Origin: Cladophialophora immunda
Taxonomy: Eukaryota; Ascomycota; Eurotiomycetes; Chaetothyriales; Herpotrichiellaceae
Assembly (NCBI RefSeq): GCF_000835495.1
Contig: NW_015622545.1
Span: forward strand, 3,240,777-3,304,776
Direction: 5' to 3'
Length of the DNA stretch: 64,000 nt
Both the position numbers and the translations under genes were made by a program. The notes beneath the pieces were generated by a model. That model did not search any database. It was not told the DNA's origin and was given only the letters and a program-made list of their open reading frames with translations. Positions 20,789-60,164 of this stretch are shown piece after piece (positions within the stretch are counted from its first letter, which is position 1; each line of letters opens with the position of its first letter).

Positions 20789-21604
20789 CGTAAGCGCGCC
20801 ACCCGTACATTTACCAGAAGTCCGGTGCGAATCTAGGAAGGAAAGCTTGGGTAGGGTGAAAGGATCCGTAACCTCAGATTGAAGTCTTCGTGAGACCTGA
20901 AGTTCCTGCAAGATTTGAGCAAATTGGCAAGCCTTTTCGTGCGAACAAATATAAAAGGCTACGTGGATGTGTTTGAATCCAGCCCCAACCCAAGTAGACG
21001 GACAAATTCCAGTTTTCGGATGTCAGTCCAACGGATCTGTCCAAGGCTGAAGTATTCCATACCATGTCAAAGTCAGTGGGACCTGAACTCCAGCGTATTC
21101 AAAATAGCCTCCCCTGATGTGAATGTGGATTCCCGTGGAGCTAAACAATGCACGATTAGATTAAAAAGCGAGGACGAAACCACAAACAGGCCCCTTCGTG
21201 GATTCTCCGCTCCGCTCGCCGTCGGGTACATCGGTCCGAGAGTTGTATTTGCCCAGGAACCTAATTGGCTTCTCTTTTCCTTGTGCAGCTGTAATGCCCT
21301 TTAGCGCATCCGATGTCTGTCCTGAAATCAGTTTAGTTCTGCCGATTGCCGACGGACACGATGGCACTTTGGATCGAGCCACGGACATGGCTCGGGGAGG
21401 GACAAGGTGACTATTGCTACTGGTTTCCCAGCACCTAAAGGACCAATAACGGAGTGGGAATCCGAGCCCCGCCCTCGCTGGCCAAGCCCAAAGTCTCATA
21501 CCCCTCTTCAGGTTATCAAATCTCCCTCACTAACACTCACCCTTCTCACACGACGTCGCGAACAAAGAGAAAAATCCGTTGGGATAGAGACAGAGACGGT
21601 TGAA
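20789..21604. promoter_or_regulatory. Divergent upstream region, dienelactone hydrolase / cluster regulator
   Basis: An 816-bp region between divergent starts. It holds one copy of TCGGTCCGA (21231-21239) and no supported gene. Confidence 0.5.
21231..21239. promoter_or_regulatory. Candidate Zn2Cys6 operator TCGGTCCGA
   Basis: CGG-N-CCG inverted half-sites with flanking T and A, 366 bp upstream of the regulator ATG and 443 bp upstream of the dienelactone hydrolase ATG. The identical 9-mer recurs upstream of the enoyl-CoA hydratase gene and twice in the transporter/ligase divergent region. Inverted CGG triplets are the usual target of Gal4-type dimers. Confidence 0.5.
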
Positions 21605-23770
21605 ATGTCACTTGGAACCGATACGGGCTCGGGCTGGCCATCTGCAAGGGATCAGCCGCCATCCTCCAGCGGTATTACGCGCAACCGGTATGCGTGCACC
21701 GAATGCAGGAAGTCAAAGGTCTTTCTTTAGCCTGCCCCTCTTTGCCATAACATAACTCCACCACGAGTTGAGCCTTCACGTCAATGTATAGAGATATCTG
21801 ACGAAAGCTGCCATCAGTTGCGATGTGATGCGCCGAAGAATCCATGCTCGCGATGCAGCAGACTTGGGCTGAAGTGCGAGGTTACATCAACTAAAAGGCT
21901 GAATAAAAGCCGGTAACTGTCCATATCAACTCTATTACTCCAAAGAGCTTTCAAGCTGACTACCGATAGCAAAATTGAAACTTTAGAGAAAGAATTACAA
22001 CATCTGAGATCCGTTGTGGAATCGAATGCGACGTCAGGACCAGCCAACATTCCGGCGACCGGAACAACAGTTGGTATATCCTATTTACATCCGGCTTACA
22101 GCGTGGAGTTTCACCAATCCCTACCAGTACCTAGACAGTTTCAGACATCTACGGGTGATTCCAGAACCATAGAAACTGTCGAAATAGAGGGTGCTGAAGT
22201 CGAATATCTATTTCAAAAGTCAGTGGCTTGATTACATCTATCTGGCGGACTACTTATAAGACGCAGGTATTTCGCACACTACCATCCATTCCTTCCATTT
22301 CTCTCGCCATCCAAAACCACAAATCAGTATTACGATGACTCCATCCTCCTGTTCTGGTCGATTGTCTGCGTGGCGGCTCGCCGATGTCGAACAGGGGAAA
22401 TTCTTTTGAGTAAGCTCACAGGGCCGGTGACAAGACTTCTCTGGGCAACCATCTCTTCCACGCCCATCTCACTCTTCAGCTTACAAGCTATCATTGTTCT
22501 TTCTGCGTGGCCCTTTCCAACGGCCAGGTTGACGACTGATCCCTCCCATGTCCTTACCGGGATCGCCATCAACTCCGCCATGTGTCTGGGCTTAAACCGA
22601 CATGGAGCAGCAGTCAATCTCACAGAATCGGGGACCATCTTCACAGAAACGGAATGTCAAGAACGTCGCAGAACCTGGGCAGCGTGTAACATTTTATCTG
22701 AAACGTATGTCACCCCCCCATCAATACTGTCCGAAGCAATGCCCTGACTTGGAACACAGCGTGTGCTCAAGGCTTGGCCATTCCACCCCTGCGCAAACAT
22801 TTGATTGGGGAATTGATCGTGCATGCGAATCTGGGTCCAGCTATAGCAACGCCCTTCACCCGAACCTTCGTCACCATTTGACCATTCAACGATTTTGCAA
22901 CCGTGTCAATAAACTTATGACAGGAAATCGGTTAGATCCCAATGGATTCCCCTCGGACGGCGAACGATACTCGATGATGAATATGCTGGAAAATGACTTC
23001 GGTTCTCTTGAATTAGCTTTGGACAATGAACTATCAAGTCAGTTACGCCATTCAGATCACTACATTTCTTCTAATACGAGCAAGAAGATATCAATCAGCT
23101 CCACTTGCAGGCGGTCAAACTTTATCTGCATCTTTTCCATTTCTTTGATTCCTGCCTCTCTGAAGCTCGACAGGCGGGCATTCTCCGAGCTTATAACATT
23201 GCGACAAGCTTTATTTCCACGATGGTCGCCGCCGACACTGCTTCAGATGTTTTGGCATACACTCCTGTATATCTCATCCAAAGCTTGAGTACTGCTGCTC
23301 AAGTCATCTTTAAGGTCTTGAACTCCAGTTATCATCGTTTTGTTGATGGTGATGCCGGAAGTATGAGTTTTCACACAGCCACAGTTATCCTTCGCCGAAG
23401 CTCCTTGGAGAGCAATGACATAGGGGATAGAGCAGCTAGCAGGCTCACTCAGCTATGGCGTGCATATAGTATCATCCAGGAAAAGAAGCAGGAAGAGCCC
23501 GTCTTACAAGTGAAGAATCGATTGGGCGCTAGTTTGATGTACGACTTCTTGTGGCAGTACAGAGATCATTGCGGTATCCAAGCAAATGGAGGTTCGTGTT
23601 GCATGCCTACCAAAAAGGAGCTTCCAGAGGGGCTGTCGCTGACCTGACAAGCAGCAACAATCGATCGAATTTCTAGTAGCACTACTCATTCCTGCCCCCC
23701 GACAATAGTGCCTGATCCGATGATGAATTGGGAGGGGCTTGAAGATTTGGACTTGTGCTATAACTTTTGA
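21605..23770 (+). CDS. Zn2Cys6 transcription factor, likely regulator of the adjacent cluster
   Basis: Seven exons with introns 21719-21817, 21913-21969, 22219-22266, 22705-22759, 23038-23087 and 23592-23651; 598 residues. N-terminal Gal4 zinc cluster split by intron 1 (CTECRKSK|LRCDAPKNPCSRC...C), a coiled-coil dimerisation segment (IETLEKELQHLRSVVES), then a fungal_trans domain (YFAHYHPFLPFL, FWSIVCVAAR, SAMCLGLNRHG, RRRTWAACNILSE). The acidic C-terminal tail MNWEGLEDLDL looks like an activation region. It ends 211 bp from the convergent lyase gene and shares its promoter with dienelactone hydrolase, so it is well placed to control the cluster. The layout resembles PrtT/XlnR-size activators, but no orthology is claimed. 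Confidence 0.85.
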
Positions 23771-23981
23771 TCCTACGGGCCGTAAACGATCTCAGCACCA
23801 GAATGATTAAATTTGCATCGAAGTTGATAATGTACATTGGGAATAGCTATTTGGTCTCTACAATCGTGCCAGTCGTACTTCGCAGCGACTTACTTGCATG
23901 AAGGGACTCTGTTCTTAATCATAGCTGACAAATACGGAGTTACCTTTCGACAAAGCATATGTGTGTCGTCTAATGGGGGTT

Positions 23982-25046
23982 TCAGATATCCTGTAACAAG
24001 AGCCCGCCAGCTTTACGATCAAACTCAATCAGCTCTCGCATACCAGACACTGCTATCATATCCCGTGGGCCTGGGACGTCTCTATCCGCATCGCCTGTTT
24101 CCTTCAGCCTTTTCAATGCTGCTGAGACATATTTGAAGGTGGGAGCCAGACAGGCTCCGGGATATATGATGATTTTAATTCCCAATTCTTGCGCCTCGGT
24201 TACCGTGAGATGAGGCGTTGAGGATCCTTGAACCATGCCATACAGCACCGGTACAGGGGAGAGCACCTCACACAGTCTTCTGACTTGCTCTCTTGTTTGG
24301 ATGGCTTCAAGCATGGCCACATCGGCGCCGACTTCAACGGCTTTCTTCAGCCTCAACAGTGCAGCTTCAAACCCGAGCTCATGCAAAGAGTCTGTCCTGG
24401 CAATGATGACAATGTCGGATCGGACGATTTTGCGCATCTCAGTGGCGGCTCGAATGCGGGATAGGAAGATCTCTTCTGAAACAAGTTCTTTCTGGTTAAG
24501 GTGTCCGCAACGTTTATTCACAACCTGGTCCTCCAGATGCAACGCGGCAACCCCTGCACGGCAATACTGTTCGACAGTCCGGCCTACCATTATCGGACCT
24601 GTGAACCCTAAGTGTCATTGCTCAAGACAAGGGCGGAGGAGCCGGGTCACGCACCTCCGTATCCAGTATCGGCATCTGCTATGACTGGGATGTCGCGATG
24701 GATGTTCGCTATCATTTCTGCATTCTCCTTCATGTCGTTCAAGGTTGCAAGACCAAGATCTGGGGTCCCGACTCGCGATACGCTTGTTCCTGCACCGGTC
24801 TGCCGCCTTTCGTGTCAGTTCAGCCATTCTGATATCAGTTCGCATGCTGCTGACCATGTACAAGCATTCAAATCCCGCATGCAGGGCCAATCTTGTCGAC
24901 AAACCATCATATACACCAGGACAAACAACTATCTTTGCTGGGTCGGCCAACATCGATCTTAATTTTGCGGCCGCGTTTGGCAGGGGATTGGTCACGTATT
25001 GGCCGTGAGGCAGGCCATTTTGGACACTAGTACCTGTGCTTTCCAT
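23982..25046 (-). CDS. PEP mutase / isocitrate lyase superfamily C-C lyase
   Basis: Three exons (25046-24855, 24799-24655, 24598-23982), 317 residues. Motifs of the PEPM/ICL barrel are complete: CPGVYDGLSTRLA, TGAGTSVSRVG, PVIADADTGYGG (metal-binding Asp), HLEDQ, and the catalytic loop NKRCGHL whose Cys marks C-C lyases rather than phosphomutases; also IIARTDS. Family members cleave 2-hydroxy acids: 2-methylisocitrate lyase (pyruvate + succinate), 2,3-dimethylmalate lyase (pyruvate + propionate) and oxaloacetate hydrolase. No mitochondrial presequence is obvious. It is divergent from the aconitase-type gene across 470 bp, implying co-regulation and a hydratase-then-lyase route. The exact substrate cannot be read from sequence alone. 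Confidence 0.88.
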
Positions 25047-25516
25047 TTTTTTCTCCTATGGACAAAGACTTCTCTCTTCACAGCAGGTTTCAGAAATGGA
25101 TTGAAAATGTGGGATGCGACTCAAAGGGATGTTCGTATATTCTTCACGATTGTTGTAACCAAGGCTACAAACCAACTTCACACGCACGTACCGATGACTT
25201 TTGCGGCACTAGCCTGTTCGATTCACCGGACATGCCGTAGCTGGTTGATGTTTCGGGTACAAATAATCGGCTAAAGTTCATCAAAGTTCATCTCGCACCG
25301 ACACGCTCCGGCCCATGATACCCAATGATGCAGAGAGCGGAATGAACTCTCGACGCTAAGATGTAGACATGGCATCTATTAGCACTCACCCATCAGCCAA
25401 TCCCGGCGGGAGATAAGAGTTCTTTGATTGTGAATTTGCAAGCACAGGAGTGATGGAAGTTGCATATTAAAGCACAACTTGCCGTCAACAGGCAAAACAC
25501 GAAGGTTATCATCACA
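25047..25516. promoter_or_regulatory. Divergent promoter, lyase / aconitase-type hydratase
   Basis: A 470-bp region. It has a CGG-N5-CCG inverted repeat at 25227-25237 and a tandem AAAGTTCATC repeat at about 25274-25294. The exact 9-mer TCGGTCCGA found elsewhere in the cluster is absent here. Confidence 0.45.
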
Positions 25517-28391
25517 ATGTCAACAATATTAGCCGAAGACTCTCATGCCATGCGAGCGAGCCGCGACATTGACGACACGTGTGAAAAGGTCCTCTCGCTT
25601 CTTAAGGATCTCAGAGGTGTTGAAATCGTCCAAGATGCAGTCTCAGGCAGGTCTACTTGCTACAATGACGGTCTCTATTGTTTGCTTAACTAATTGAGCT
25701 CAAGGGATTCTGACTCACTATTCGAATCTTCTGGGTTTCATAGATTCCTTGAGTCAAATACTCCCATCCATGGGGTACCCCCATGAATCGTCCGCTTTAA
25801 GATACGTTGTGGAAGTATGCACTACTTCTAACGACTTTGGTGGTCTGGGAATTGATACAAAAGCGTCCCTCTCTGACAGTGCAGAAGACGAAGTGGTATT
25901 CTTGGTTTCAGCTTGGTTGCAGGCTCTCAATTCTTCAGACCGAGCCAAATCTGTGCCAAAAATGCTGCCAATCAGGCCACCGGGAAGAAAGCCCATGACA
26001 ATGGCAGAGAAAATTCTCGCCACACATGACACCGAGAGACGAGGTGAGGTGCAACTAGGAGATACCCTGCGTATAGATGTGGACTGGGTGATTGCTTCGG
26101 AGCTGTCTTGGAAGGTATGGCACTGGGTCAATCTCAAAGTCAATCGACGATAACGTGCATACAGGGGATGGAAAGGACGTACGATCTGATGGGAAAGCCT
26201 GGGATTTTCAGAAACGACCGTTTTTGGCTTGCAGGAGATCACAGAGTCCATCCTCGGCTGACCCAGGAGCCGCAAATAAAGGCGTTGATGGACGCCAGTG
26301 TGAGAGCGAAAAAAGATTTCAAAATGACCGAATTCCAGGGATTCAACGTAAGTCGCCACCTCTCATCGCTACTGTCGACCATCTGATGATTTCTCCTTCA
26401 GTATACCATTCTGCATACGGAATTCTTTCGTGAACGCGCACAACCAGGGATGCTAGTGATTGGTTCTGATTCTCATACATGTTCTGCAGGTGCCATTGGT
26501 TGTCTGGCGATCGGTTTGGGAGGAGCAGACGTGACGGTGCCACTCATTACAGGCGAAACTTGGATAAAAGTTCCCGAGATTGTTAATCTGCGTTTTATTA
26601 ACAGACCACCCCGCGGGATTGGAGGGAAGGATACAATCCTATATATCCTCAAAGAGTTTAAGAGGAACACAATTGCTGCGGATAGGATTGTCGAGTTCAC
26701 AGGTCCAGGCTTGAAGTATCTTTCCCTTGATGCTCGCTTTGCAATCGCTAATATGACAACGGTAGGTCTCCTTCAGCCTTTAAATTACTTGGATCCGCTG
26801 ATGATGAATTGCATTTAGGAGCTCGGGGGGGTGACTGGGATTTTTGAGGCTGATCAACGGACATTTGACTTCGTCAATCGCCGACATATGAAGAGATATA
26901 AGAACGATTCGAACTATTTCCGAGCAGATCTAGATGCAAACTATTGCAAGATCTTCGAGATCGATCTCGCGAAAGTAGAAGCTTTTGTGGCGAGATTTCC
27001 GTCACCAGACAATGTCGTTCCTATTCAAGACATCGCCGGCATGAAGTTGGAAGGGTGCTTTATCGGTGCGTGTACGACTGCAGAAGAAGATCTCATCATT
27101 GGTGCGATGGTATTGGAGGAAGGAATGAAACAAGGAATGGTACCCGTGAAGGGAAGGAGACTGGTGATTCCAGGATCCAGGCCCATTCGACATAAGCTGG
27201 ACAAACTTGGCTTTACCGAAATCTATCAGGCGGCTGGTTTTGAAGTCGGTGTTCCAGGCTGCAGTATGTGCGTTGGCACAGGTGTTGATCGAGCAGGCGA
27301 AGGAGAAATGTGGTTGTCTTCGCAAAATCGGAATTTCAAGAATCGTATGGGAAAGGGTGAGTGCTAATCTAGCTCTCCGAAAGCCAGTTCTCACCATCTC
27401 TTGAACAAATAGGATCTGTTGCGAATCTCGCATCTGCAGCCACCGTGGCGGCATCTTCATTCAAAATGGAAGTCACAAACCCGCAATATCTGCTAGAACG
27501 ACTGGACGAAGCGCGATTGACTCAATATCTGGGATATGACCCTTTGATTGATCGGATTCCAGTTAGCATAGGAAGCCCGAGCTTTATGGAACCAGGCGGG
27601 TCAAGCACAGCTACAACACACGAAATTGCCGGTCCAATTGTAAGAAAGTCCACAGCGATGAAGACAGCCAGGCCGTCAGATGAGGCGAAGCCTAGCACGA
27701 TCATTTCGGGGAAGGTCTTCAAACTTGGGGATTTTATTGACACGGATGCAGTACGTCAGAGGCTATGGACCAGCCTCCCTCCATTCTACGGGAAACTGAC
27801 ATAAGTGTATAGATTGCTCCTTCGCAGTTCGCGATGAGTTCCAAAACCCAGGCCGATTTTGGGCTACACTGCATGGAGCTCTTCATGCCAGAATTCAGAC
27901 AATTGGTGAAAGATGGACTGAATGTAATTGTAGCTGGAGAATCTTTTGGCTGCGGCTCGTCGCGCGAAGCTGCCGTCACCTGTCTATTGGGTGAGCCATC
28001 TTTTCCCCACTACTTGAAAGCAAAAAATACTGACAAGAGACCACAACTAGGGGCCGGAATTCATTGTGTGATTGCAAAGTCGTTTTCTTTCATTTATGCC
28101 CGCAATCAGCCGAATCTGGGTCTTTTGGGCTTTACCATCACAGACAAAGACTTCCACGAATTGGCACAGCAAGGCGCGGAGATCAATATAAACCTGTCGG
28201 CCAGAGAGGTTATGATTCAAGGCAAAAGGTTTCCGTTCAAACTCAGTGAAATGGAGAAACAACTGATTGCTGTTGGAGGAATTACGTCGGCTTTCCAAGA
28301 ATTTGGAAAGCGACTGTTCGAGCGCATGTGTTCTGGCCAACCGACTGTGGCTCGACAGAGACCACAGGACGAAAGACGCGAACTTTTTTAA
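25517..28391 (+). CDS. Fused aconitase-family hydratase (LeuC+LeuD type) with N-terminal extension
   Basis: Eight exons, introns 25671-25743, 26115-26164, 26348-26401, 26762-26818, 27357-27412, 27751-27812 and 27991-28050; 820 residues. Domains 1-3 contain [21 protein letters not shown] (from about 257) and the 4Fe-4S cysteines in GACTTAEED (about 441) and GCSMC (about 504 and 507). The swivel domain carries [13 protein letters not shown] (about 690). It is closer in style to isopropylmalate dehydratase/homoaconitase than to mitochondrial aconitase. Residues 1-140 are an extra N-terminal segment with no recognised fold. Known relatives isomerise or hydrate citrate, isopropylmalate, methylcitrate or dimethylmaleate. 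The divergent lyase gene suggests the product is cleaved next. The first intron (donor GTCTCT) is the weakest join. Confidence 0.85.
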
Positions 28392-29017
28392 CCCAAGGCA
28401 ATGAAGATTTGACTAATGATAAAATCTTGAATTGTGATATGTCAGCCGGAATGCTCATCTGAGATATTGAATGCTCCTTACTCCTGGTGCCTATTAGGCA
28501 AGGTGGTGCAGTCATGACGCCTGCATTGTTACCTACACCAAACCAGCCCTGTGGTGCCCATTACCACATCTCCTTGCGTAAGATGATGTCTATATAATGC
28601 AGATAGTCCTCCTGGTAGCCATGCTCTTCAGAGCCATCAATGACAATCATTTGCATGCATACTGTACGACATGATACCTCAACCTCCAAGGGTCATCACA
28701 CATCTACATTGTTCTAACGCTAGAAACGATTTGGAATAATTGAATTCAGTCTCTGTTCATATGGCAGTGCCAATTTCAGCGAAGCCACTCTCGGTACTCG
28801 CAAGATTCTTCGGACGGGCTCCATCTCGGCCCAGAGCGGAATGTTATGATTTCGGTCCGAGTTTATCTAGGAGGTATGTACCCATTTGCTAGTATGCTAT
28901 TGTGGGGACTCCAGGATTGTTGACGTTCATGGTTAAGGATTTTATCGATAAAATGAAGGCAAAGGAGGGAGATTGACTGTTATTCCACGCTACGCATTTC
29001 AGCTTCTTTGCTCCAAG
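28392..29017. promoter_or_regulatory. Upstream region of enoyl-CoA hydratase gene
   Basis: A 626-bp region following the aconitase-type gene. It contains TCGGTCCGA at 28852-28860, about 160 bp before the next ATG, and no supported gene. Confidence 0.5.
28852..28860. promoter_or_regulatory. Candidate Zn2Cys6 operator TCGGTCCGA
   Basis: Second exact copy of the cluster 9-mer, 158-166 bp upstream of the enoyl-CoA hydratase ATG, a typical distance for a fungal activator site. Confidence 0.55.
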
Positions 29018-30074
29018 ATGGTGGATCACACTTTCAAATATTTTACATTCACTACTCCTCAGGAATGGATTGGACACGTGGAGATTAATAGGCCCGAAAC
29101 GTTGAATGCTTTCTTTGAAGAGTAAGACCTTGTGATATGGTTCACATCTGAAAAATATTATACATTTTCGCCCTTCGAGATTAAACTAACACGGATATAG
29201 CATGTTGCACGAGCTCCGAGACATCTTCAAGTGGCTGTCCAGCGACGCTGACACCCGTGTTGTTATTCTTTCCGGTGCAGGACCTCGAGCGTTTTCGACA
29301 GGAATAGATGTCAAAAGGCCTTCTGCAAAAGTCGTGATACGGAACGGAGAGATACAAGACCCTGCAAGGAGGGCGAGGCAGATCAGGAGACATGTCATGG
29401 ATGTCCAAGACTGTGTCAGTTCCATTGAATGCTGCGAAAAGCGTATGTCACAATCAAATGCTTGCAGTGTATGAAATTGCTCAAAGGGGGCCCTCAGGCT
29501 AACTGGCACAATCAAAATTGGAAGCTGTGATATGCATCATGCACGGCTACACTCTGGGACTAGCCATCGATATCTCAGCCAGCGCCGACATACGGATATG
29601 CACTAAAGACGCAATCTTCTCTGTCAAAGAGGTCGATTTGGGTCTTGCTGCAGATGCTGGGGCTCTTCAACGGCTGCCCAGCATTGTTGGCTCCTTATCT
29701 TGGGTCAAAGATGTCTGTTATACTGGGAGAAGATTCGGCGCCGAAGAGGCATTGAGCGTGGGATACGTCAGCTCCATTTCAAAAGACAAACAAAGTGCCA
29801 CCCAAGAGGCCATTAAATTGGCCGCAAATATCGCTAGCAAAAGTCAGATTGCTGTACTGGGCACGAAAGAGTTGCTTAATTATGGCACGAATCATGACGC
29901 TTCAAATGGTAAGACTCTAAAATCTCAGGCAGCAATGGCGCCTCGGTACTAAATTGTTTTACAGGCCTTAGATACACTTCTCTATGGAGCGGTGCGATGC
30001 TTCAAACCAGGGATATATCCTCTGCCGTCAACGCAATGAAGCATAGGAAGAAGGCGACATTTGCGAACTTGTAA
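29018..30074 (+). CDS. Enoyl-CoA hydratase/isomerase family protein
   Basis: Four exons (introns 29122-29200, 29443-29524, 29909-29964), 279 residues, a normal crotonase length. Crotonase features: VEINRPETLNAF, the oxyanion-hole segment GAGPRAFSTGIDVKR, KPVICIMHGYTLGLAIDI, and SVKEVDLGLAADAGALQRLP with an acidic residue at the second catalytic position, resembling dienoyl-CoA isomerase-type members. No clear C-terminal PTS1 (ends ATFANL; a degenerate NL at most). Crotonases hydrate or isomerise unsaturated acyl-CoAs in beta-oxidation and related routes. In this cluster it probably works downstream of the acyl-CoA synthetase at 33169. Start chosen at ATG 29018, directly before the family's first strand. 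Confidence 0.88.
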
Positions 30075-30530
30075 ATTCCCATGGTTTCTCAAGCGAATGG
30101 GCCACCCGATCGCACCCTTATGGCAATATTCTTCAGTGCATCGAACCGCAACGATTATATTATATATGACTTGAAGGGAAAAGCGATCCTACTTGTCTAA
30201 TCCGCCTTTTTTTTTTCAACTCTCCGACGTTTACCAAGTGTCTCGTTCGCTTTCGAGGCGAGAAGACCTTACTCTTGAGTAGAGCGAGCCGGTACATTTT
30301 CTGCCATGTACCATTCGTAATCTGATCAGTTTCACTATAAATCTAACTCAACGAGCTATCATGATACTGCGCGATACGACTCCTGATAGGTCGGTGGGCG
30401 ACTCGCTTGTAATGTATGACATAGGCTACTTCGTTCAAGGAAGTCGATGAGATATTTTCTGTTTCACAGGTGTGGTAGTCGGAAGTGAGGATATATTTGC
30501 CCCAAAAAGTAATCTCCCACCACCACAGTC
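30075..30530. other. Intergenic between convergent genes
   Basis: About 456 bp between the crotonase and transporter stop codons. Only 3' UTRs expected; a short poly-T run at about 30207 is the only notable feature. Confidence 0.5.
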
Positions 30531-32291
30531 TCACAGAATGTATCGAAAGGCAATGTGATCATCGTAAACCTCCTCCAGCGATTTTTCCATATGAGGGTGA
30601 ATCTCGTTTCTTGACGCGTATTCCGCTTTGACACGCTCTTTGCCACGGTTCTTGATTCGCATGATGGCTTGAGCCGTAACTGTGAGAATCAGACCAGTTA
30701 CGAGGAGGGCCAAGACAATGCAATGTCCCTCAATGTAGCGAGGTGACTTTTTATAGATCTGCGTCCCGATCATGGATAGGCATTGGCTGAAAACCTGTGA
30801 AATGGCGTACACGGTCGCACGTTTGGTGTAGCCGGCAATATTGATTCCCACCCAAGCAACAAGCAGAACCACCGAAGGAAAGACCCCGCTGGATACGAGA
30901 CAAGTGCCGAAGATCAGAACCGGAACATTCGTGACTGTAAGCAGGATGATGTACCCAACGCAGGAAAGACCAAGGGTTCCCATAAGAAAGTATCCTTTCA
31001 GGCCTGTGCGATCTGAGAGGATGTTGACAACAATCATCGTGGCTGTTGCACATGCGTATGGAATGACTGAGAAGAGTTGTGTATTAACTGCCTAACAATC
31101 AGTTCTGTCGGCGGAGGCATTACTGTAGATGGCAACGAACGTGGGGAGAATCCGAACGCCCTGATGAAGCTGGGAAGGAAAGAACTGAGCGATGCCACTC
31201 CTAAACCCAAAGACCCAGTAATGAGGCTGAATAAGTAGAGCCGAGCGTCTTTGAAGGCGATCAAAATCTGCCGAGGTTGAACCTTTGATTCAGGAGTATT
31301 GTAGACTGTGTCGTGTTAGTTGACGTAAATTAAGGCTGCTTTGATGATGTACCCAGCGAACGATCGATAGCCAACGCTACTTCTTTGTCCGTGAAAGGGA
31401 ATTTCTTTTTGTTCTTCATTTGGTCTGGAAAGCCGGGAAGGATGATCCAAACTAGGAGGCCCAGACCTACAGCTATCGCTCCTTCGATGATGAACAGCCA
31501 CTGCCACCCGGCTTTCCCGTGCACCCCAGTCAGATTCTTTTCAACTCCATAGGCCAACAGACCACTAAAGGAGCCAGATATTGTCGCAGCGGAGTAATAA
31601 ACAGCTTTTTGCCGGTCAGCAACATCTTCATACACTAGAACAAAGTCAGATAAATAACTTACCTCCCCGAGTGGCAACCTCATCTCTTTTGTACCACACA
31701 TTAGTATATAGGACCAGGCTCTGAATAAAGGCCTCCGAGGCTCCAATCAGAACACGAACCCCGGCGATTGTCTTCCAGTTACGGGCAGCGGACATTACGA
31801 AGACACATACGCCCAAAAGAATGCTGGCGCCACCAAGTTGGCGGTGTGGTCCTATCACACGCAGAAGTAGGTTGGCTGGCAGCATGAAAACACAATATCC
31901 GACAACTTGGAAAATCAGCATCGGCACGGCGAAAAAGATTCTTATTGAGGAAGGTTGACTAACAAAACAGCATCAGACAGTTGTAGAATTGGCCATCGGT
32001 CATTCTCAAATCCTTTTGCAGCGTCATGATTCGAGCGTTGCCCAAGTTGTTTCTGTCCTGTTCAATGTCACCAATTAGTGGAGGCTCTGGAGTCCAAAAA
32101 GGTACGCTCACAAGATATGCAACCAAAAAACTTGTTGCAAGCATTGGCAGAATGAAGAAATCCATTTTCCGCACAAGTAGCCGTTCAGCTCGCGATTTGC
32201 CGGGAGTTCCGCTGTTTGTCTGCTCTGAAGGATCGGTGACGGAAGCATCATCAGATTGGTCAACCTGAATTTCCTTGTTCTGCTCAGACAT
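30531..32291 (-). CDS. MFS transporter, allantoate permease (Dal5/anion:cation symporter) family
   Basis: Six exons; introns 32058-32111, 31906-31963, 31605-31662, 31306-31352 and 31088-31140; 496 residues, about 12 membrane segments. Family markers: RKMDFFILPMLATSFLVAYL|DRNNLGNAR at the first splice, FVGYCVFMLPANLLLR, a central YSAATISGSFSGLLAYG and WQWLFIIEG. The first intron has no stop and is a multiple of three, so it could be misread as coding. The Dal5 family takes up small organic anions such as allantoate, pantothenate, nicotinate and other carboxylates at the plasma membrane. It is divergent from the acyl-CoA synthetase; its upstream region carries two tandem cluster 9-mers. Likely imports the cluster's carboxylate substrate (inference). 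Confidence 0.88.
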
Positions 32292-33168
32292 GGGGGGAGA
32301 ACGAGACCGTCTGTGTTAGCTGTATCTTTTCTGTTGCTGGAGTTTCTAAGTCGAATCCGAATAGCAACAGGGTAAAGATGAATGAACGGGGAAGTGAGAC
32401 CGGTTTTTTTTCTTCCTAAACAAGGCTTCCAATGACTGATTAAGTTATAGAGATGAAATCCTAGCTTTATGGAGAATACGGGGAAATTATCTGGGGAACA
32501 AGAGATCCCTCGGGCTAGGAGGCGCCTTCAGGTGTCGACCGGTCCGTAACTTTTAGTGCAATTAATCTTGCAGCAATTTGCATCGGTCCCAACTCAGCAA
32601 GCCCTGTCAACTCTGTTGAAATCTTGCGGTAGGCTAATGGTAGAGAAAGTACTACTCCTGAAGACCGGGGCGCCGTAAATGTGTGACACGTCTTTCGGTG
32701 CGCGTCTCGTACACTTTTATCTATAACCTACCTATGCTAAATTATCTAGAATATTAACTGCTTCCGAGAGCTTTTATGGAGGGAGTCGATGAGGACCACC
32801 GCAAGGTAATAAATCTGCATTTGGACATTGCGACTCCTCTGCATAGCAAGTCTGAAGAGGAAAATGGTCTCCAGTATCTGTGAGTAGAAGCTACAGGGTT
32901 AACCTCTTCTGTTTCCATGCTACTCGGTCCGAGTCGGTCCGAAATTGATCTGCCGCAATACCCGATCGGGTCAATGAATCGACCCAAGAGCCGATGGAAA
33001 GATGTTGCAGAGCAGGTGGGATGGATTCGCATGAAGAACCAGCTGGCTGTGAACGGGGTTGCGTGCATTACTTGCGGCTCAATGCTTCACTTAAGTCGGA
33101 CTATGGCATTCATGCTAGAGAATCCGACAATTACTCCATGCCCTACTGCAAAGTTCTCCCCATAACAC
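32292..33168. promoter_or_regulatory. Divergent promoter, MFS transporter / acyl-CoA synthetase
   Basis: An 877-bp region with two exact TCGGTCCGA copies at 32924-32932 and 32934-32942 and a related CCGGTCCGT at 32539-32547. No supported gene. Confidence 0.55.
32924..32942. promoter_or_regulatory. Tandem candidate operators, two TCGGTCCGA copies
   Basis: Two exact 9-mers with starts 10 bp apart, about one helical turn, 227-245 bp upstream of the acyl-CoA synthetase ATG and about 635 bp upstream of the transporter ATG. The helical phasing is suggestive of cooperative dimer binding. Confidence 0.6.
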
Positions 33169-35243
33169 ATGTCCAGCGGCTTTGACGAGGACCGATTCAC
33201 GATGTTTCTAGCGGCGACTGCTGCCGCAACAGGTGGTGCGGCTATTGCAGCATATGTAGATGCCAAACTTGATATCACAAAGGACCTTCAATCAATATTA
33301 ATCCAAAAAACAGTGGAGAGGAAATGGAAAAGAGCAGGTAAGTCGAAGTCAGAATGTGAATGTATTTTCATGCTGATCTCGATTCCCTCTGTGTAGTCAC
33401 AAAGAAGAAGAAAAGCCTTTGGTATCTTTTCGAGTTCGAGGCTCGGCTACATCCTGTGAAGGAGTGCATATGGTCTGAAGCCGGCTCTTATACTTGGGCC
33501 GAAGTCCATCAGCAAAGCTGCCGCTATGCCAACTGGTTTCTCTCACAAGGAATAGCCTCGGGACAGTTGGTGGCTTTGTACCTGCAAAATTGCCCAGAAT
33601 TCATTTTCGCCTGGTTAGGCCTCTGGGCCATTGGTTGTGCGCCGGCAATGATCAACTACAACCTCTCGGGAGATGCGTTACTGCATTGCTTACGGCTGGC
33701 CGAAGCTCCTCTTATTCTGGTCGACTCAGAGTTCCCAAAGCGCGTACTTGAGCATAGAGAAATTCTAGAATGCGAACTAGGATCTAAGATCGTCACTCTT
33801 GATCAGGAAGTCAAAGATGAGATTTCGAGAGAGGTTACAGATAGGCCAGGCGACAAATACAGAGATAATGTGAATGGCACAGATGCAAACAGCCTCATCT
33901 TCACCAGGTAGGTGGTATTTGGTACAACACTTACAGACCTCTACTGATGCTTTGTCAATAGTGGAACTACAGGTCGACCCAAAGCCTGTCCTCATCCAGT
34001 TTTGAAGGGGTTTGTATCTGGTTCAGTGGCAGGTCGAAATATAGGGCTTACGACTGACACGCGCTTGTACAATTGTATGCCCTTATATCACGCAACTGGC
34101 GGCCAGATCAGCATGATGTGCATGATGGGAGGTCTTTCTCTGTGCCTTGGAAAGAAATTTAGTGCCTCAGGGTTCTGGAACGATGTCAGGAAGTCACAAG
34201 CAACGTGCATAACCTATGTCGGGGAGACGGCACGATACCTGCTCGCTATGCCACCAAGCCCGCTAGATAAGCAGCACAGAGTGCAATGTATGATCGGGAA
34301 TGGGCTGAGACCAGATGTCTGGGTCAAGTTTCGCGAGAGGTTTGGAGTTCAAGACGTTGCAGAATTCTTTAGCAGTTCAGAAGGGGTATTCGGACTCCTG
34401 AATCACTGCAAAGGTATAGATCCCCGAACTAAATCCTCAAGGAGCTGCAATCCAAGGACTAATTCATTTTCGAATACAGGTGACTATCTTTTAGGCGCGG
34501 TGGGTCACCACGGCGCCCTTTTGCGCTTTATGTTTCGGAATGTCTACGTCCCAGTCGAAATCAACCCTGCATCGAACGAGCTTCTGCGGGATCCACGCAC
34601 TGGTTTTGCAAAACGCCGATCATACGATGAAGGCGGCGAGATCATTGTTGCTGTTTCTTCGGTCGCCGCTTTTGCAGGCTACTACAAAAACCCGGAAGCT
34701 ACTGCTAAAAAATTCGAGCGAGACGTTTTTAGAACCGGAGACCTCTGGTATCGTACGGGCGACGCTCTCCGACGAACCACCGATGGCCGTTGGTACTTTC
34801 TCGACCGTTTAGGTGACACGTTCCGATGGAAAAGCGAAAATGTAAGCACGGCAGAGGTTGCTGGAGTGCTAGAAAAGTTCCCCGGAATTGCAGAAGCATG
34901 TGTATACGGTGTTGAAGTGCCCGGCCACGAAGGACGTGCTGGCTGTGCAGCGCTTCTCATCGATCACACTGGGCAAGCATCGTTTGATTTCGAAGCGTTA
35001 CTGAAACATGCAAAAAGATTTCTACCAAGTTATGCGGTTCCGGTCTTTCTGAGGTTGGTCAAGGAAATGCCACATATTCACAACAACAAGCAAAACAAGG
35101 GTTTATTAAGACAGGGAGGTATAAACCCGACAGAAGCTCAGAATACCGATGTGCTATTATGGCTTGGACCTGGCAGAGAATGTTACATTCCCTTCAGGAA
35201 CGAGAACTGGGAAGCTTTAAATCGAGGGACGGCAAAATTATAG
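33169..35243 (+). CDS. Acyl-CoA synthetase, FATP / very-long-chain type
   Basis: Four exons (introns 33338-33396, 33908-33961, 34414-34479), 631 residues. An N-terminal hydrophobic segment (FLAATAAATGGAAIAAYV) fits a membrane anchor. The AMP-binding P-loop SGTTGRPK (about 227) is formed across intron 2, followed by YNCMPLYHATGG, an RTGDL-like block, and the FATP/VLACS signature DRLGDTFRWKSENVSTAEV. The intron at 34414-34479 has no stop and a length divisible by three, but GDY directly after HCKG matches the family. These enzymes activate long or very long fatty acids and some branched or ring-bearing acids to CoA thioesters at the ER, peroxisome or plasma membrane. Here it probably primes the acyl part of the cluster substrate. 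Confidence 0.9.
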
Positions 35244-35899
35244 GTCAATTTGCCATACATTGGTTCAGTGGCCACTCAAGCCTTCGTTCAACCGTGCTAT
35301 AAGATCGGAATGCAGCGAGACTATGACGGCGTGGCTGAAGATGTCAAGGCCACTGCGACTTCTTTTTCTAGAGTAGTAAACTGATCGTCAATCAGACAGT
35401 CTGATCTAACACTTCAAGATGTCTTTCTCCACCAACAAACGACAGGCTCTCCGATGTACTGGTCCAAGCTCTTCAAGATGCCTTTTCGACGCTGCCAGGC
35501 TCCCGCCCGGATAAGCAAACTCTTCTCTGGCAATCAATATTATCATCTAACAAACACCCCCCGACAGTACAAGCTAGAGGAATCCTTCTTAACGGCACCT
35601 TCGCACCGACATTCGAAGTTGGCTATTTGAGCTCAACACCACACTTCGATTTTTCTTCGTGCTTCGCGCGCTCAAGCCATCATCTCCTCGTGGTCACTTC
35701 TCGGCTTCGAACTTTTATTGCAGGATCCGGAAGTGAACGGTCGGTCTATTATGAGCTAAAGGAGACTCTAGACTTCGGCTGGTGACCACTAGCCACCTGT
35801 GATTCAGGACACCAGTTTAACTCTGACAACGCCCGTTCATTTGTGCTTTCGTCGACCAGCCTTGCGGGGTTATGGCGATTTGCCTCCCCTTGCCTTCGG
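35244..35899. other. Intergenic between convergent genes
   Basis: About 656 bp after the acyl-CoA synthetase. No domain-bearing frame seen. Confidence 0.4.
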
Positions 35900-36555: not shown

Positions 36556-37445
36556 GAGTGATGTAGTATTCGGAGTTGTTAATTGAGTGATAACCTGATG
36601 GGCAGGATGCTAGAGCCAGGGTTGGTGGTGGTGTTACTGTTGCTGTTGCTGTTGGTGTTGGAGACACACTGTTATATAGGGCGTATGTTGGGGACTCAGA
36701 TTATCTCCATTCATCATTTTACAATCAAGCCGATGCACCAGACGGCACCTTAGACCGTCGGCCAACTCGGTGCGGCGCCGTAGTTAAGTCGCCGACTGGA
36801 CCGGACGCAATGCTGTTTTAGGTCTAGTCTTTAAGTACTCCTAAATACTGTCCTTATGAATACATTATCTCATGCCCATATCCACAGGAAGTCCTTCGAG
36901 CGGCTTAGTGCCGAGCTCGGTGCGAAGTACAGCCCCACAAATTACCCACTCTTACAAACCAGGCCGGACACAATGCTGTTTTAGGTCTAGTCATTAACAC
37001 CACTAACTTCCAGGGATCCTGACGACCTGGTAAATTCTATCTCTCACTACCACGCCCACATGTGTCAAGTCACTTGATTGAGAATTCTCGATTGCTAGAG
37101 AAGAGCAATGGCAGAGCCAGGCGAGCTTCCTTGTATTCATTAGCAGAAAACCCAAACCACCGCGTACCATGGCCGCGAGACTATCAATATCCACGGGAGG
37201 AGTATTTCTGTCCTGTATCTTCCTTAGGATAACTGAAAGAGGTTTAGTCTGAATTAAAAACTTGGTAATCTGAGATGTAGATCGTTCAAGAATTAATCCC
37301 ATGAACGAGGAGCGCAGATGGGGAGGAAAGAGTACTAGGACGCGTTGGGGTATACGCAAATACAACTTCGAGATCTGTTTTCAACTATTCAATCATTCCA
37401 TAAAGCTTAGCAAGAGTGTGAGACACACGGCATGAATTCGCTGCA
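36556..37445. other. Intergenic with a diverged direct repeat
   Basis: About 890 bp. It contains the 29-bp direct repeat listed separately. A minus-strand 120-codon frame at 37003-37365 has no recognised domain and may be a relic or chance frame. Confidence 0.4.
36801..36992. repeat. 29-bp direct repeat pair
   Basis: Segments 36801-36829 and 36964-36992 match at 28 of 29 positions (CCGGAC at the start, GGTCTAGTC at the end) and start 163 bp apart. The flanks are partly similar (both preceded by related C/G-rich text). Probably remnants of a repeat unit or old element. Confidence 0.7.
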
Positions 37446-39128
37446 TTAACCCAGTCTGTAACGGTCGTTGATCCATTTAGTGACTTCTGAAGCGGTCTGC
37501 TTGTGCTCAAGTGATGTGAACCGTGCCTTTTGGATCACCCACATCGAGCAAAGACAGAACAACCTTCCCACCATCTTTCCAGGCGGAGGTGAACGCGGAT
37601 GCGAGTCATATCTGCGTGTAAAGCCCAAGAGCAGAGGGATTGACCACATGATCACAGAAGACAGCTTGTCGACAGCTTCCTGCTCCGTATGAATTCGTTC
37701 CATATTCTCCCGATCTGGTTCGCGCCCATGTATTGTGGCACCGTAGTTGATCACATCGACCAACGACTCCCGTAGAACGATCTGGCTTGCAGCATGAAAG
37801 TTCCACAAGCATCCCAACCAAAGGTTGTGGTAACTGAGCATACGTGCATATGGAAAATGGGGAATAGGAAGGTCAAATGGCTCATCCATCTCACGAGGTT
37901 GCGCAATTTGCTGTGGATCCGTCACCTCTGGCTTCCACAACCCCGTCATCGCCGAAGTCCAGCTCTCGATAGAAGCAATCAGGTTTTGGATTGAGTGCGC
38001 CAGTTGTGTTGACTGTTCTACCTTTTCCTCTAGAGAGCTCCCGACCTCCTCGCCGCTCTCCGTCAGCTTCTTAGCCGCAGCAAAGAGAATGTTCATATGG
38101 AGAACATCAGCAGTAATATGGATGTCGGGCTGATCAACGTTCAGCTTGCTCACCCACATTATCTGCTCAGGATCGGGTTCTTCACGAAGCAGGATTTGCC
38201 GAGCTTGAAGGCGTTTATGTGCTAGACACCCGAGAGCGAAGCTAGATTGATTGAAGAGATAGTCGTTACCTCCGCTATGGAGGATGTGTTTGATAGCGTC
38301 TCTATGAGGTCCAAGCGGCCCGATCCGTGCAAGATACATCTTCTATAATGGTTAAGAGTCAGCAGGTGCCAGAATTTATGGGAATAGCATAGTACTACGG
38401 TACCTCGAAGTTATCAATCAGTAGGATGGCAGCCAGAACTTGGTCACTGGCCAGTCTGTGCTCCTCATGTGCGACCACTCTCAGGCCATTCAAAGCGGCG
38501 CCGTAATACTGTCGTGCCTTGATATGGAAAGGAGTATCTCCGACACTCTCATGCCTCATGTCGGCACAGGCCACAGCTCGGACGGCTAGCCAAAGGACCG
38601 ATCCTGGAGGGGCACTGAGGTAGAGTGGGTAAAGGTCGTGCATATGTCCGGGAACTACTCCGTCGTTGCCCGGATACAAGGTCCAGTTGACGAAGAACCG
38701 AGCAACAGCCCGAGTCTCAACATCTCTTTTCAGAGGGCCCGGTACCTCAGCGAGTGCCCTGTCACTAAGCCATGGATACTGTAATAGCAGACCGGGCTCG
38801 ACGACGTGTGTGGATGCTTGTGGGTGCTGTTCCTGGAGTACCTGAGACGGTAGGACGTCGAACGACATTGCAGGCGCCTTACCCTCTCTCACTTCCCTCC
38901 TTGCTCGTTCCGAGTTCTTCTGCGACGCTTCGTTTTCGTCCCGAAACATGAAGTCAGTGTCTGCCGGAAAGCCAGAACAAGTCAGGCCTCGTTGCGTGCA
39001 GCGGCCACAAATGGGACGAACACGATCACACTGCAGCCGACTGTCAGCATGAATAGAGACCTGTCGATCGAATGGCATACCTTCGCCTTTGCGACTCTGC
39101 ATGGCAAGCAGGTACGAACGACACTCAT
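37446..39128 (-). CDS. Zn2Cys6 transcription factor
   Basis: Three exons (39128-39081, 39030-38404, 38342-37446), 523 residues. Gal4-type zinc cluster CLPCRVAKAK|CDRVRPICGRCTQRGLTC split by a 50-nt intron at the usual point, followed by an acidic/Gln linker and a DUF3468-like regulator region (ARFFVNWTLYPG, ALNGLRVVAHEEHRLASDQVLAAILLIDNFE, then LGPHRDAIKHIL). An upstream in-frame ATG at 39182 would add 18 residues; the nearer ATG gives the usual short N-terminus. No obvious target genes; the nearest neighbours are the GFA-like gene and the MITE region. Confidence 0.85.
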
Positions 39129-57079: not shown

Positions 57080-57770
57080 CTCGGCGACCTGGAGATTGTG
57101 ATTCTGGAAGTGTTCGTACCCGATGAGTTCGGATTTCGCAGCCTGCGGGATCAAATTGATTGGTATCTCGGGAAATGTTTCTGACGGAGATGTTTTGTGA
57201 ATTTCTTGGATGATTTTTCGTTGTCAAAGTCTTTCACAAAAAAGACTCCTTGAAACTTGAGATCGATGATACGCCAAAAGGGGTTAGTATGTCTTGGCAA
57301 ACACGTGACTCCTATTCGGTGAAGCATTCTGACCAGGAGATGCAGGCGCCTTGTGGTCGATTGTCCAGCGACCACGACTGTCGATCCATTCCAACTCCTC
57401 ATCATGTTCGGGCTGCAATTTCACTTCAGATGGGGGAGGGACTGGCCTCTCCAAGTTGTCCGTGAATTATCCGCTACCTTCAGCGAACTCGGCTTAGTCG
57501 AACATGCAACATGTCAGATCGGGCGGCCCTCGTCGCACGGCCCGCCTTATCCGCCGACCACGACCACGGCACATTGCATGCCTCGGCAGGGTTCCTCGCG
57601 GAATTGTGGTGGTCGTTCTCTCGAGGGCTAGAGTGAGATCATGTCCGGGGAAATACCCAGCCTGACGACTGTACTATTTCTCCCGCATACCGGCCATAAT
57701 GCGCAACCCACCCCAGGCATCGTTATAGCAACCCCCCTCAAAACATTCAACCAACAGGCAAACAATCAGA
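57080..57770. promoter_or_regulatory. Divergent upstream region, PBDC1-like / carboxylase alpha
   Basis: A 691-bp region. A plus-strand open frame extends from about 57641 to 57907 but in another frame from the carboxylase. No supported extra gene. Confidence 0.4.
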
Positions 57771-60164
57771 ATGAGACAGTATCGAGATACCCAGCCAGAC
57801 CCAGGCCAAACATCCGCAACGCTGCAACGGCCACCCCTCTTTGTCGCTCAGTTACCATCCAGCAGCCATGGCAGAAGGCAGATTCAGAGGGTGTTGATCG
57901 CGAATAGAGGTGAAATCGCATGTCGAATCATCGCAACTTGTCGGAAACTAGATCTAACATCGATCGCTATCTACGCACAAGAAGACTCGTCTTCGCGCCA
58001 TGTTGCCGAGGCAGACGAGGCAGTCAATCTGGGAAGCATTAATCAAACCGGAGGAAACCCATTCTTGAATATCCCGCTTCTTGTTGATGTTGCTCGATCG
58101 CAGGGCGCTGATGCCATACATCCAGGCTATGGCTATCTCAGCGAGAACAAAGATTTCGCGGACGCCGTACGTCAAGCAGGAATGATCTTCATTGGACCAA
58201 GTTCCCAGGCCATGTCCACGCTGGGCGACAAACGCAATTCAAAGGACTACTTGAGGAAACATGCGCCCAGTGTTCCGCTCATTCCAGGATTCACAGGCTC
58301 AAGCCAGAACGTCAAAGAGTTGGAATCCGCCGCAGAAAAGGTTGGGTTTCCGGTGATGCTAAAGGCATCTGCTGGAGGTGGAGGTCGCGGGATGCGGATT
58401 GTTCGAGAGCGTTCACAACTTGCGGGTGAGCTTGCTCGCGCACAGTCAGAGGCTCAGCGTTCTTTTGGATCGAGCGACTGCATTCTCGAGAAGTACATCG
58501 AAGCGGCCAAACATGTCGAAGTCCAGATCATTGGTGACAGCCATGGCAAAGTCCTGTCGTTGTGGGAGAGAGAGTGCTCTGTTCAGCGACGGCACCAGAA
58601 GATTATCGAGGAGACGCCATCCCCATTTTTGACTCCCGAACAGAGGCAAAGAATGTGCGCAGTCGCTGTCCAAATAGGCGAACTCATTGGGTACGAGGGT
58701 GCTGGTACCGTCGAGTTTGTTGTGGACGCCAGAGACGGAAGTTTCTACTTCCTCGAAGTCAACACGCGCCTGCAAGTTGAACACCCCATCACAGAAGAGG
58801 TTACGGGCCTTGACGTTGTCTCGCTGCAATTGTTTGTGGCCGCCGGTGGATCCCTCGCCAGTCTGTCCGTTCTACAGCACATTCCGCAAAAGGGCCACGC
58901 CATCGAGTGTCGGCTCTGCGCAGAAGATCCAAGCAGTGATTTCATGCCACAGAACGGCACCATCCAACTGTGGCGGGAGTCAGACCAGTATCCATCGTCA
59001 AGAGACGTACGATACGAGACCTCTGTACAAACCGGATCCACCATATCCATTTACTTTGATTCGATGATCGCCAAAATCGTGGTGTGGGCGCCGACAAGAT
59101 CCATGGCAATCTCGAAAATGGTCAAGGTTTTGGCAAATACGGTGTGCGCAGGAGTGAAAACCAACCAGCTTTTCCTCCAGGCCTGCCTTTTGCATCAAAG
59201 CTTTCATGACCCGGCTTATACGACCTCGCTGATTCCGACGCATGTGCAGAGTCTGCTGAAAAATCCCTACACTGAATCTGTGCAAGACATGATCTCTATG
59301 CTTTCTCTGGTTCCGGGTCTTGTGCTGAGGGGTGGAGCATCTCCGCTGGCCGATGCGAGGCCTTTCAAGCACGTCACTCGAGGCTTTAGAAACCAATACT
59401 TTGACCCTGTCAATCGCAGCACAACTGTAATTGTTCCTTCAGAGCCCTCCTCCGCTCAGACACCCATTTTGTCAGTTTGGAGCGCCCACTCTCGCGGCGA
59501 GAGCGGCCACTCAAAATACGAGGCCACATTAGTCCCCATCCCAACTGATGAAAACGACCAGGCGCCGGACACCTCAAGCCGTGACCCCGAGGCCTACCAG
59601 ATATCTCGGCAGTATCATGCCATCAGCCACAAGCTCAGAGATCCATCTCTAGCCAACGCTCCACAGTACACCGTGGAATTTACAAAGTGGAAGGACATGC
59701 AAGATCCGACTGGCGACAACGCATGGAGAACCGCGTCAGTCGCCATCTCCATCAACCAATCCATCATCCACGCCCACATCGCAACAGACACACCTTCCAA
59801 CCCCGCCTCCTCCACCGCCTCGTATCAGACCGTCCTGTGCCATTTCCGCGGGCTGGGCACGTGGGTGGAATACAAGTGCTACAGCGTCCTCAACTACATG
59901 GAGAGTCTACGACAAGCCGTTGGTGGTCGCGGCGGCTCTCTGGGAGGTTCAAACTCCAAGGTCATCAAATCCCCCATGCCGTGCAAAGTCCTCTCGGTGC
60001 TCAAAGCCAACGGAGAACAAGTCAAGGCCGGCGAAGTGGTCATGGTCATTGAGAGTATGAAGATGGAGACGAACATCTGCATCAATGTGGACGGCAAGTT
60101 CATGACGGGAGTCAAGAACGGGGATGCCGTGAATGATGGCGCTGTGTTGTGCTGGGTTGAATAG
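57771..60164 (+). CDS. Biotin-dependent acyl-CoA carboxylase alpha subunit (3-methylcrotonyl-CoA carboxylase-like)
   Basis: Intronless, 797 residues. Biotin carboxylase domain from about 40 (RVLIANRGEIACRII), then HPGYGYLSENKDFA, the ATP-grasp loop KASAGGGGRGMRIV, ECSVQRRHQKIIEETPSP, EVNTRLQVEHPITEEVTGLD and the C-terminal AIECRLCAEDP. The biotinyl domain at the end has ESMKMET with the acceptor Lys at about 764; the usual Ala before MKM is Ser, as in several fungal paralogs. This subunit carboxylates biotin with ATP and bicarbonate; a beta subunit, not in this window, would transfer it to an acyl-CoA. The N-terminus (about 39 residues) is not a clear mitochondrial presequence. The acyl-CoA dehydrogenase gene 1.06 kb downstream suggests a branched-chain acyl-CoA route. 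Confidence 0.88.
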   Translation: MRQYRDTQPDPGQTSATLQRPPLFVAQLPSSSHGRRQIQRVLIANRGEIACRIIATCRKLDLTSIAIYAQEDSSSRHVAEADEAVNLGSINQTGGNPFLNIPLLVDVARSQGADAIHPGYGYLSENKDFADAVRQAGMIFIGPSSQAMSTLGDKRNSKDYLRKHAPSVPLIPGFTGSSQNVKELESAAEKVGFPVMLKASAGGGGRGMRIVRERSQLAGELARAQSEAQRSFGSSDCILEKYIEAAKHVEVQIIGDSHGKVLSLWERECSVQRRHQKIIEETPSPFLTPEQRQRMCAVAVQIGELIGYEGAGTVEFVVDARDGSFYFLEVNTRLQVEHPITEEVTGLDVVSLQLFVAAGGSLASLSVLQHIPQKGHAIECRLCAEDPSSDFMPQNGTIQLWRESDQYPSSRDVRYETSVQTGSTISIYFDSMIAKIVVWAPTRSMAISKMVKVLANTVCAGVKTNQLFLQACLLHQSFHDPAYTTSLIPTHVQSLLKNPYTESVQDMISMLSLVPGLVLRGGASPLADARPFKHVTRGFRNQYFDPVNRSTTVIVPSEPSSAQTPILSVWSAHSRGESGHSKYEATLVPIPTDENDQAPDTSSRDPEAYQISRQYHAISHKLRDPSLANAPQYTVEFTKWKDMQDPTGDNAWRTASVAISINQSIIHAHIATDTPSNPASSTASYQTVLCHFRGLGTWVEYKCYSVLNYMESLRQAVGGRGGSLGGSNSKVIKSPMPCKVLSVLKANGEQVKAGEVVMVIESMKMETNICINVDGKFMTGVKNGDAVNDGAVLCWVE

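Follow-up and report, generated by a model that had tools for sequence, protein, structure and literature searches.

In the terrein cluster, the cluster's own zinc-cluster protein TerR binds the site TCGGHHWYHCGGH; in vitro measurements showed this binding, and promoter mutations confirmed it (PMC4360782). For the gliotoxin cluster, TCGGN3CCGA has been proposed as the site of GliZ and is experimentally unproven (PMC4006717). The yeast Stb4 motif is tabulated in two forms, TCGg..CGA and CGGryCGA (PMC2174516), and CGGnCCG is promoter motif M18, conserved across four Fusarium species including Fusarium graminearum (PMC2853525). Here we analyzed a 64-kb stretch of the Cladophialophora immunda genome (contig NW_015622545.1, positions 3,240,777 to 3,304,776; hereafter the window), in which the 9-mer TCGGTCCGA recurs in the promoters of a gene cluster with a zinc-cluster regulator gene of its own, starting at 21605. 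The reading we lean towards, with modest confidence, is that the repeated word is a Zn2Cys6-type cis-regulatory site with the consensus TCGGTSCGA, probably read by a cluster-resident regulator, most likely this one.

Like the TerR sites, those of this locus start with TCGG and stand in cluster promoters, whereas the TerR site is a direct repeat with a longer spacer. As in the GliZ proposal, inverted TCGG...CCGA triplets lie in most promoters of a cluster with its own zinc-cluster regulator, but the spacer here is one base and does not fit the three-base form, and the chemistry of the cluster differs. The words TCGGTCCGA, TCGGACCGA and TCGGTGCGA all match TCGGnnCGA, as in Stb4, and CGGACCGA, on the reverse strand, matches the second Stb4 form; this likeness concerns the site word alone, Saccharomyces cerevisiae being distant. 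M18 has the same core, although it is a general motif rather than the operator of one cluster, and the available portion of its description assigns no factor to it (PMC2853525). Given these four precedents, the arrangement of the sites is of a known kind. For the one-base spacer, a search of the open-licence literature returned no factor in filamentous fungi among the matches listed, and to our knowledge none has been assigned there to inverted repeats with this spacing.

Placement of the shared word and its variants

Four copies of TCGGTCCGA lie in the window, at 21231, 28852, 32924 and 32934, and a search of both strands returned no fifth copy in the 64 kb, in agreement with an earlier sequence-only reading of this DNA. 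That reading had put the chance expectation at about 0.5 copies; dinucleotide shuffles of the window gave a mean of 0.61 (four copies were reached in 2 of 100), and the genome rate gives approximately 0.36 per 64 kb. The genome total is 237 copies on both strands (42.2 Mb, 39 contigs), every place being enumerated through searches with one base added to the word (73, 50, 65 and 49 copies). All four window copies are intergenic and upstream of modelled start codons, at approximately 370 bp from the ATG of the regulator, 160 bp from that of a crotonase-family gene and 230-250 bp from that of an acyl-CoA synthetase gene. All four are also classed as non-coding, the copy at 21231 being borderline (9.6, against a threshold of 10), so that gene models and coding scores both confirm the non-coding, upstream placement claimed earlier. 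The three promoters with the exact word have the 10-mer TCGGTCCGAG in common (65 genome copies). All four exact copies have the triplet arrangement CGG-T-CCG, as does position 32540, where the weaker CGGTCCG reported previously is real. The last two exact copies, described as one helical turn apart, are indeed spaced by 10 bp; this tandem, TCGGTCCGAGTCGGTCCGA, is the sole TCGGNCCGA pair in the genome with 0-30 nt between its members.

The promoter between the lyase and aconitase-family genes had been described as lacking the 9-mer and carrying CGG-N5-CCG instead. The exact word is absent and CGG-ACATG-CCG is present there; overlooked was a one-mismatch copy, TCGGTGCGA, at 25293. This variant, with a single full CGG triplet in each copy, occurs at 25293, 35601 and 36917 in the window and 296 times in the genome. 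A different one-mismatch copy, TCGGTCCCA, likewise overlooked, lies in the transporter/synthetase promoter. The window has seven sites of the form TCGGTSCGA, none of them outside 21.2-36.9 kb (seven were reached in 0 of 100 shuffles), and they are present in five of five upstream regions, namely the four cluster promoters and that of an adjoining gene of the glutathione-dependent formaldehyde-activating-enzyme (GFA) family; at least four regions were reached in 0 of 5000 shuffles. Seven of the 533 such sites in the genome fell within 15.7 kb anywhere in 1 of 20,000 simulations, and six in 0.145%, both post hoc figures. As the TG variant was selected post hoc, it is fairer to ask how often both regions without the exact word share one same one-mismatch variant, which happened in 3 of 5000 shuffles.

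Enrichment weighed against chance

The four cluster promoters (2790 bp) hold four copies of TCGGTCCGA where the genome rate predicts 0.016, with a Poisson probability of 2.5e-9, or 6e-7 when the tandem is counted once; multiplication by the 131,072 possible 9-mers brings these to approximately 3e-4 and 0.08. In 1000 shuffles of the promoters, some 9-mer was found in at least three promoters 100 times and with at least four copies once, and a 9-mer with a CGG/CCG pair (spacer 0-3) was found in at least three promoters in none. Genome-wide, four copies inside 11.7 kb occur at this locus only; random placement of 237 sites produced such a group anywhere in approximately 1% of simulations. With the tandem taken as one, three places in the genome have at least three copies within this distance, and the cluster locus is the only one at which all score as non-coding: each of the other two (contig C2 at 2.27 Mb and contig C4 at 2.87 Mb) has one coding-scored copy. 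Three non-coding copies in 11.7 kb arose in 0.8% of simulations, assuming that approximately 1/4 of copies are non-coding.

This fraction comes from 28 unselected genome copies (the first eight enumerated, plus a random draw of 20 among the 180 isolated copies of contigs C1-C7), of which 7 were non-coding and 21 coding-scored, against 46.5% coding-scored among 600 background positions from six stretches at round coordinates. The classifier was trained on the long reading frames of the window, partly reused for calibration, and its non-coding calibration set was the cluster's own promoters; at a threshold of 10 it called 1.1% of non-coding and 96.5% of coding positions coding, error rates that are optimistic because the training and calibration sets overlap and the cluster promoters were used. 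The sequence-only reading had offered a high genome-wide count in unrelated promoters as grounds for refutation. On that ground the outcome is mixed: the word is uncommon in non-coding DNA, yet it is not private to the cluster; from 7 of 28, some tens of other non-coding copies are expected.

Several results weigh against a regulatory site. With 237 genome copies, the word is not specific to the cluster. Random placement brought three copies together within 11.7 kb at some point of the genome in 37% of simulations, and with the tandem as one, the places on C2 and C4 match the cluster in number. Since the motif was found by looking, its corrected significance is moderate. The TG variant was picked post hoc, and shuffling the lyase/aconitase promoter alone produced some one-mismatch variant in 320 of 5000 trials. 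The core CGGTCCG/CGGACCG is also found beyond the cluster, at 1435, 4347, 43455 and 51806, copies that had been overlooked, and the looser class CGGNCCG shows no clear enrichment across the window (18 matches, 12.7 expected; 18 reached in 9 of 100 shuffles). Some shared words always turn up in promoter sets, as AATCTTGC shows: it has four copies in the cluster promoters against 0.11 expected, a naive enrichment similar to that of TCGGTCCGA. It occurs five times in the window (reached in 16 of 100 shuffles) and 1629 times in the genome, its enrichment comes to approximately 0.2 after multiplication by all 8-mers, and it is without zinc-type symmetry; we set it aside as a rival word, and it is a possible second shared promoter element.

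Chance offers another explanation: a CpG-rich word of moderate abundance happens to lie in three promoters and was doubled once by a 10-bp duplication. In favour of it are the 37% of random placements given above and the abundance of the word in coding sequence (21 of the 28 copies). The tandem could be such a simple duplication, its units being identical except for the last base, as after a local event. Set against this are the four exact copies themselves, which are non-coding and of zinc type, with weak copies and a shared variant alongside, and we hold chance to be an unlikely explanation. The clustering exceeds chance moderately genome-wide, and more strongly once the cluster is given. 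In a ranking of spaced dyads, CGG-N1-CCG came first of 63 zinc-type dyads (P 0.003 uncorrected, approximately 0.2 corrected), and AT-rich dyads outranked it among all 31,138; we prefer the genome counts to this ranking because 14 of its 20 background stretches (L010-L023) were picked for holding the 9-mer.

Candidate reader and predicted mechanism

The operator predicted by the sequence-only reading is the best-supported explanation, given the enrichment, the non-coding placement, the zinc-type palindrome, the uniqueness of the tandem and the variant shared by the two upstream regions that lack the exact word. Overall, that prediction is supported in part. The closest solved domain by sequence to the zinc-cluster domain of the regulator is that of Leu3 (PDB 2er8, E 3.2e-5). 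Leu3 reads everted CCG-N4-CGG, unlike the inverted CGG-N-CCG here. Outside C. immunda, relatives of the regulator are at most 33% identical (18 proteins among the matches listed; 7992 candidates scored). That the 21605 regulator reads the site is something we infer, given the presence of a second, probable zinc-cluster gene at 37.4-39.1 kb. An intron seems to interrupt the cysteine motif of this second gene, which continues as CDRVRPICGRCTQRGLTC. The regulator at 21605 is the most likely reader and the second gene a less likely one.

Alternatively, the sites could be real but serve a zinc-cluster factor with a wider role, or the product of the 37.4-39.1 kb gene, instead of the regulator at 21605. 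The breadth of the CGGnCCG motif in Fusarium would fit such a factor, M18 having 369 occurrences, 93 of them conserved, in four genomes (PMC2853525). Pairs of TCGGTCCGA within 300 bp number three in the genome, the tandem included, against 0.40 expected, and two of them are far from the cluster; moreover, the second gene is only approximately 5 kb from the tandem and adjoins the GFA gene with its variant site. Yet the only four-copy group and the only tandem of the genome sit in the cluster that contains the 21605 regulator, and at four other TCGGTCCGA loci the ten reading frames scanned, seven of them with a Pfam match, revealed no evident common theme (the matches include haem peroxidase, MFS, phospholipid methyltransferase and CoA transferase). 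On this evidence we regard a reader other than the 21605 regulator as somewhat unlikely. Two of the pairs, in stretches L011 (7870-8153) and L012 (1851-2148), are near a haem peroxidase gene and an unnamed reading frame; one member of a pair on contig C2 at 5.75 Mb has a borderline coding score of 10.6.

If the cluster-resident regulator does read the word, the site, mostly a near-palindrome T-CGG-T-CCG-A, would be bound by a protein dimer with one zinc module on each CGG triplet. Such binding would switch the lyase, aconitase, crotonase, transporter, acyl-CoA synthetase and hydrolase promoters jointly. With divergent genes flanking three of the four cluster promoters, a single bound dimer could act on two genes at once. 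The copy in the regulator's own promoter may provide autoregulation or feedback, and at the tandem two dimers might sit one helical turn apart on one face of the transporter/synthetase promoter. The outcome could be activation or repression. A bolder proposal, which we consider doubtful, is that a small C. immunda regulon marked by TCGGTSCGA joins a catabolic cluster for branched dicarboxylates (lyase, aconitase-family hydratase, crotonase, acyl-CoA synthetase and transporter) to the GFA gene, under a zinc-cluster protein with unusually tight one-base inverted-repeat spacing. If true, these proposals would supply an operator ready for testing in a catabolic cluster so far uncharacterised, from a black yeast that degrades toluene, and would offer a candidate factor for the Fusarium CGGnCCG motif; they would help to link zinc-cluster proteins to their sites and leave the general understanding of such regulation unchanged.

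Genes of the cluster and neighbouring features

Genes were rebuilt from sequence and named by domain matches (Table 1).

Table 1. Sites and genes of the cluster region, in window coordinates.
Feature	Position	Strand	Remarks
Dienelactone-hydrolase-like gene	ATG 20788	-	Domain match barely above cut-off
AATCTTGC promoter copies	20908-20915, 28800-28807, 32564-32571, 32620-32627		Last two near the weak transporter-promoter sites
TCGGTCCGA, copy 1	21231..21239	+	Promoter shared by hydrolase-like gene (ATG 20788, -) and regulator (ATG 21605, +)
Zinc-cluster regulator	21605..23770	+	Model of 599 aa, 7 exons; Zn_clus and Fungal_trans; 99% identical to PV07_09273
PEP mutase/isocitrate lyase family lyase	23982..25046	-	ATG 25046
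TCGGTGCGA	25293..25301	-	Promoter of lyase (ATG 25046, -) and aconitase (ATG 25517, +)
Aconitase-family hydratase	25517..28391	+	99% identity over 85% to PV07_09275
TCGGTCCGA, copy 2	28852..28860	+	Upstream of crotonase ATG 29018
Crotonase-family enzyme	29018..30074	+	Identical to CLAIMM_02130 of C. immunda
Probable major-facilitator (MFS) transporter	30531..32291	-	Pfam match under cut-off; model incomplete
Weak copy CGGTCCG	32540..32546	+	Transporter-proximal half of transporter/synthetase promoter
One-mismatch copy TCGGTCCCA	32583..32591	+	Same promoter
Tandem TCGGTCCGAGTCGGTCCGA, copies 3 and 4 of TCGGTCCGA	32924..32942	+	Transporter/acyl-CoA synthetase promoter
Acyl-CoA synthetase (AMP-binding)	33169..35243	+	ATG 33169
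TCGGTGCGA	35601..35609	-	Between synthetase and GFA gene, inside an open frame
GFA family gene	ATG 36528	-	Adjoins the cluster
TCGGTGCGA	36917..36925	+	Approximately 390 bp upstream of GFA gene (ATG 36528, -)
Second, probable zinc-cluster gene	37446..39128, ends approximate	-	Zn_clus 20.4 bits, cut-off 21

The best solved relative of the lyase is named 2,3-dimethylmalate lyase (E 2.5e-84); a literature search for fungal dimethylmalate lyase clusters gave nothing useful among the matches listed. The hydratase scores above the general Pfam aconitase cut-off and stays below every specific NCBIfam cut-off for the 25 families shown out of 26, and its aconitase-family relatives are approximately 51-62% identical among the matches listed. 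Together with a synthetase, a crotonase and a transporter, these two enzymes suggest that a branched di- or tricarboxylate is taken up and degraded to acyl-CoA. The aconitase model (25517-25960, +) starts approximately 130 residues ahead of the aconitase matches, and the deposited PV07_09275 is shorter, at 696 residues.

In work on toluene degradation, a formaldehyde-activating enzyme, CLAIMM_02133, was up 12-fold on toluene (PMC5595782); by locus numbering this is probably the GFA gene adjoining the cluster, and the other cluster genes did not come up in the available portion of that text. Between the synthetase and GFA genes, the TCGGTGCGA copy at 35601 is held by an open frame (35405-35782, +; 126 codons) without a Pfam match, possibly a decayed gene.

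Upstream of the crotonase gene, an upstream open reading frame (28761-28892, +; 43 codons from an ATG at 28761) spans the 28852 site and contains a good splice donor at 28874. An upstream crotonase exon from this ATG, which would make the site coding, was rejected because CLAIMM_02130 is identical to the 279 residues from 29018 and the frame scores as non-coding. No RNA families were found in the window at gathering thresholds. Further along, 57729-62618 (+) encodes a biotin carboxylase followed by an acyl-CoA dehydrogenase, which by their Pfam matches resemble a leucine-breakdown pair.

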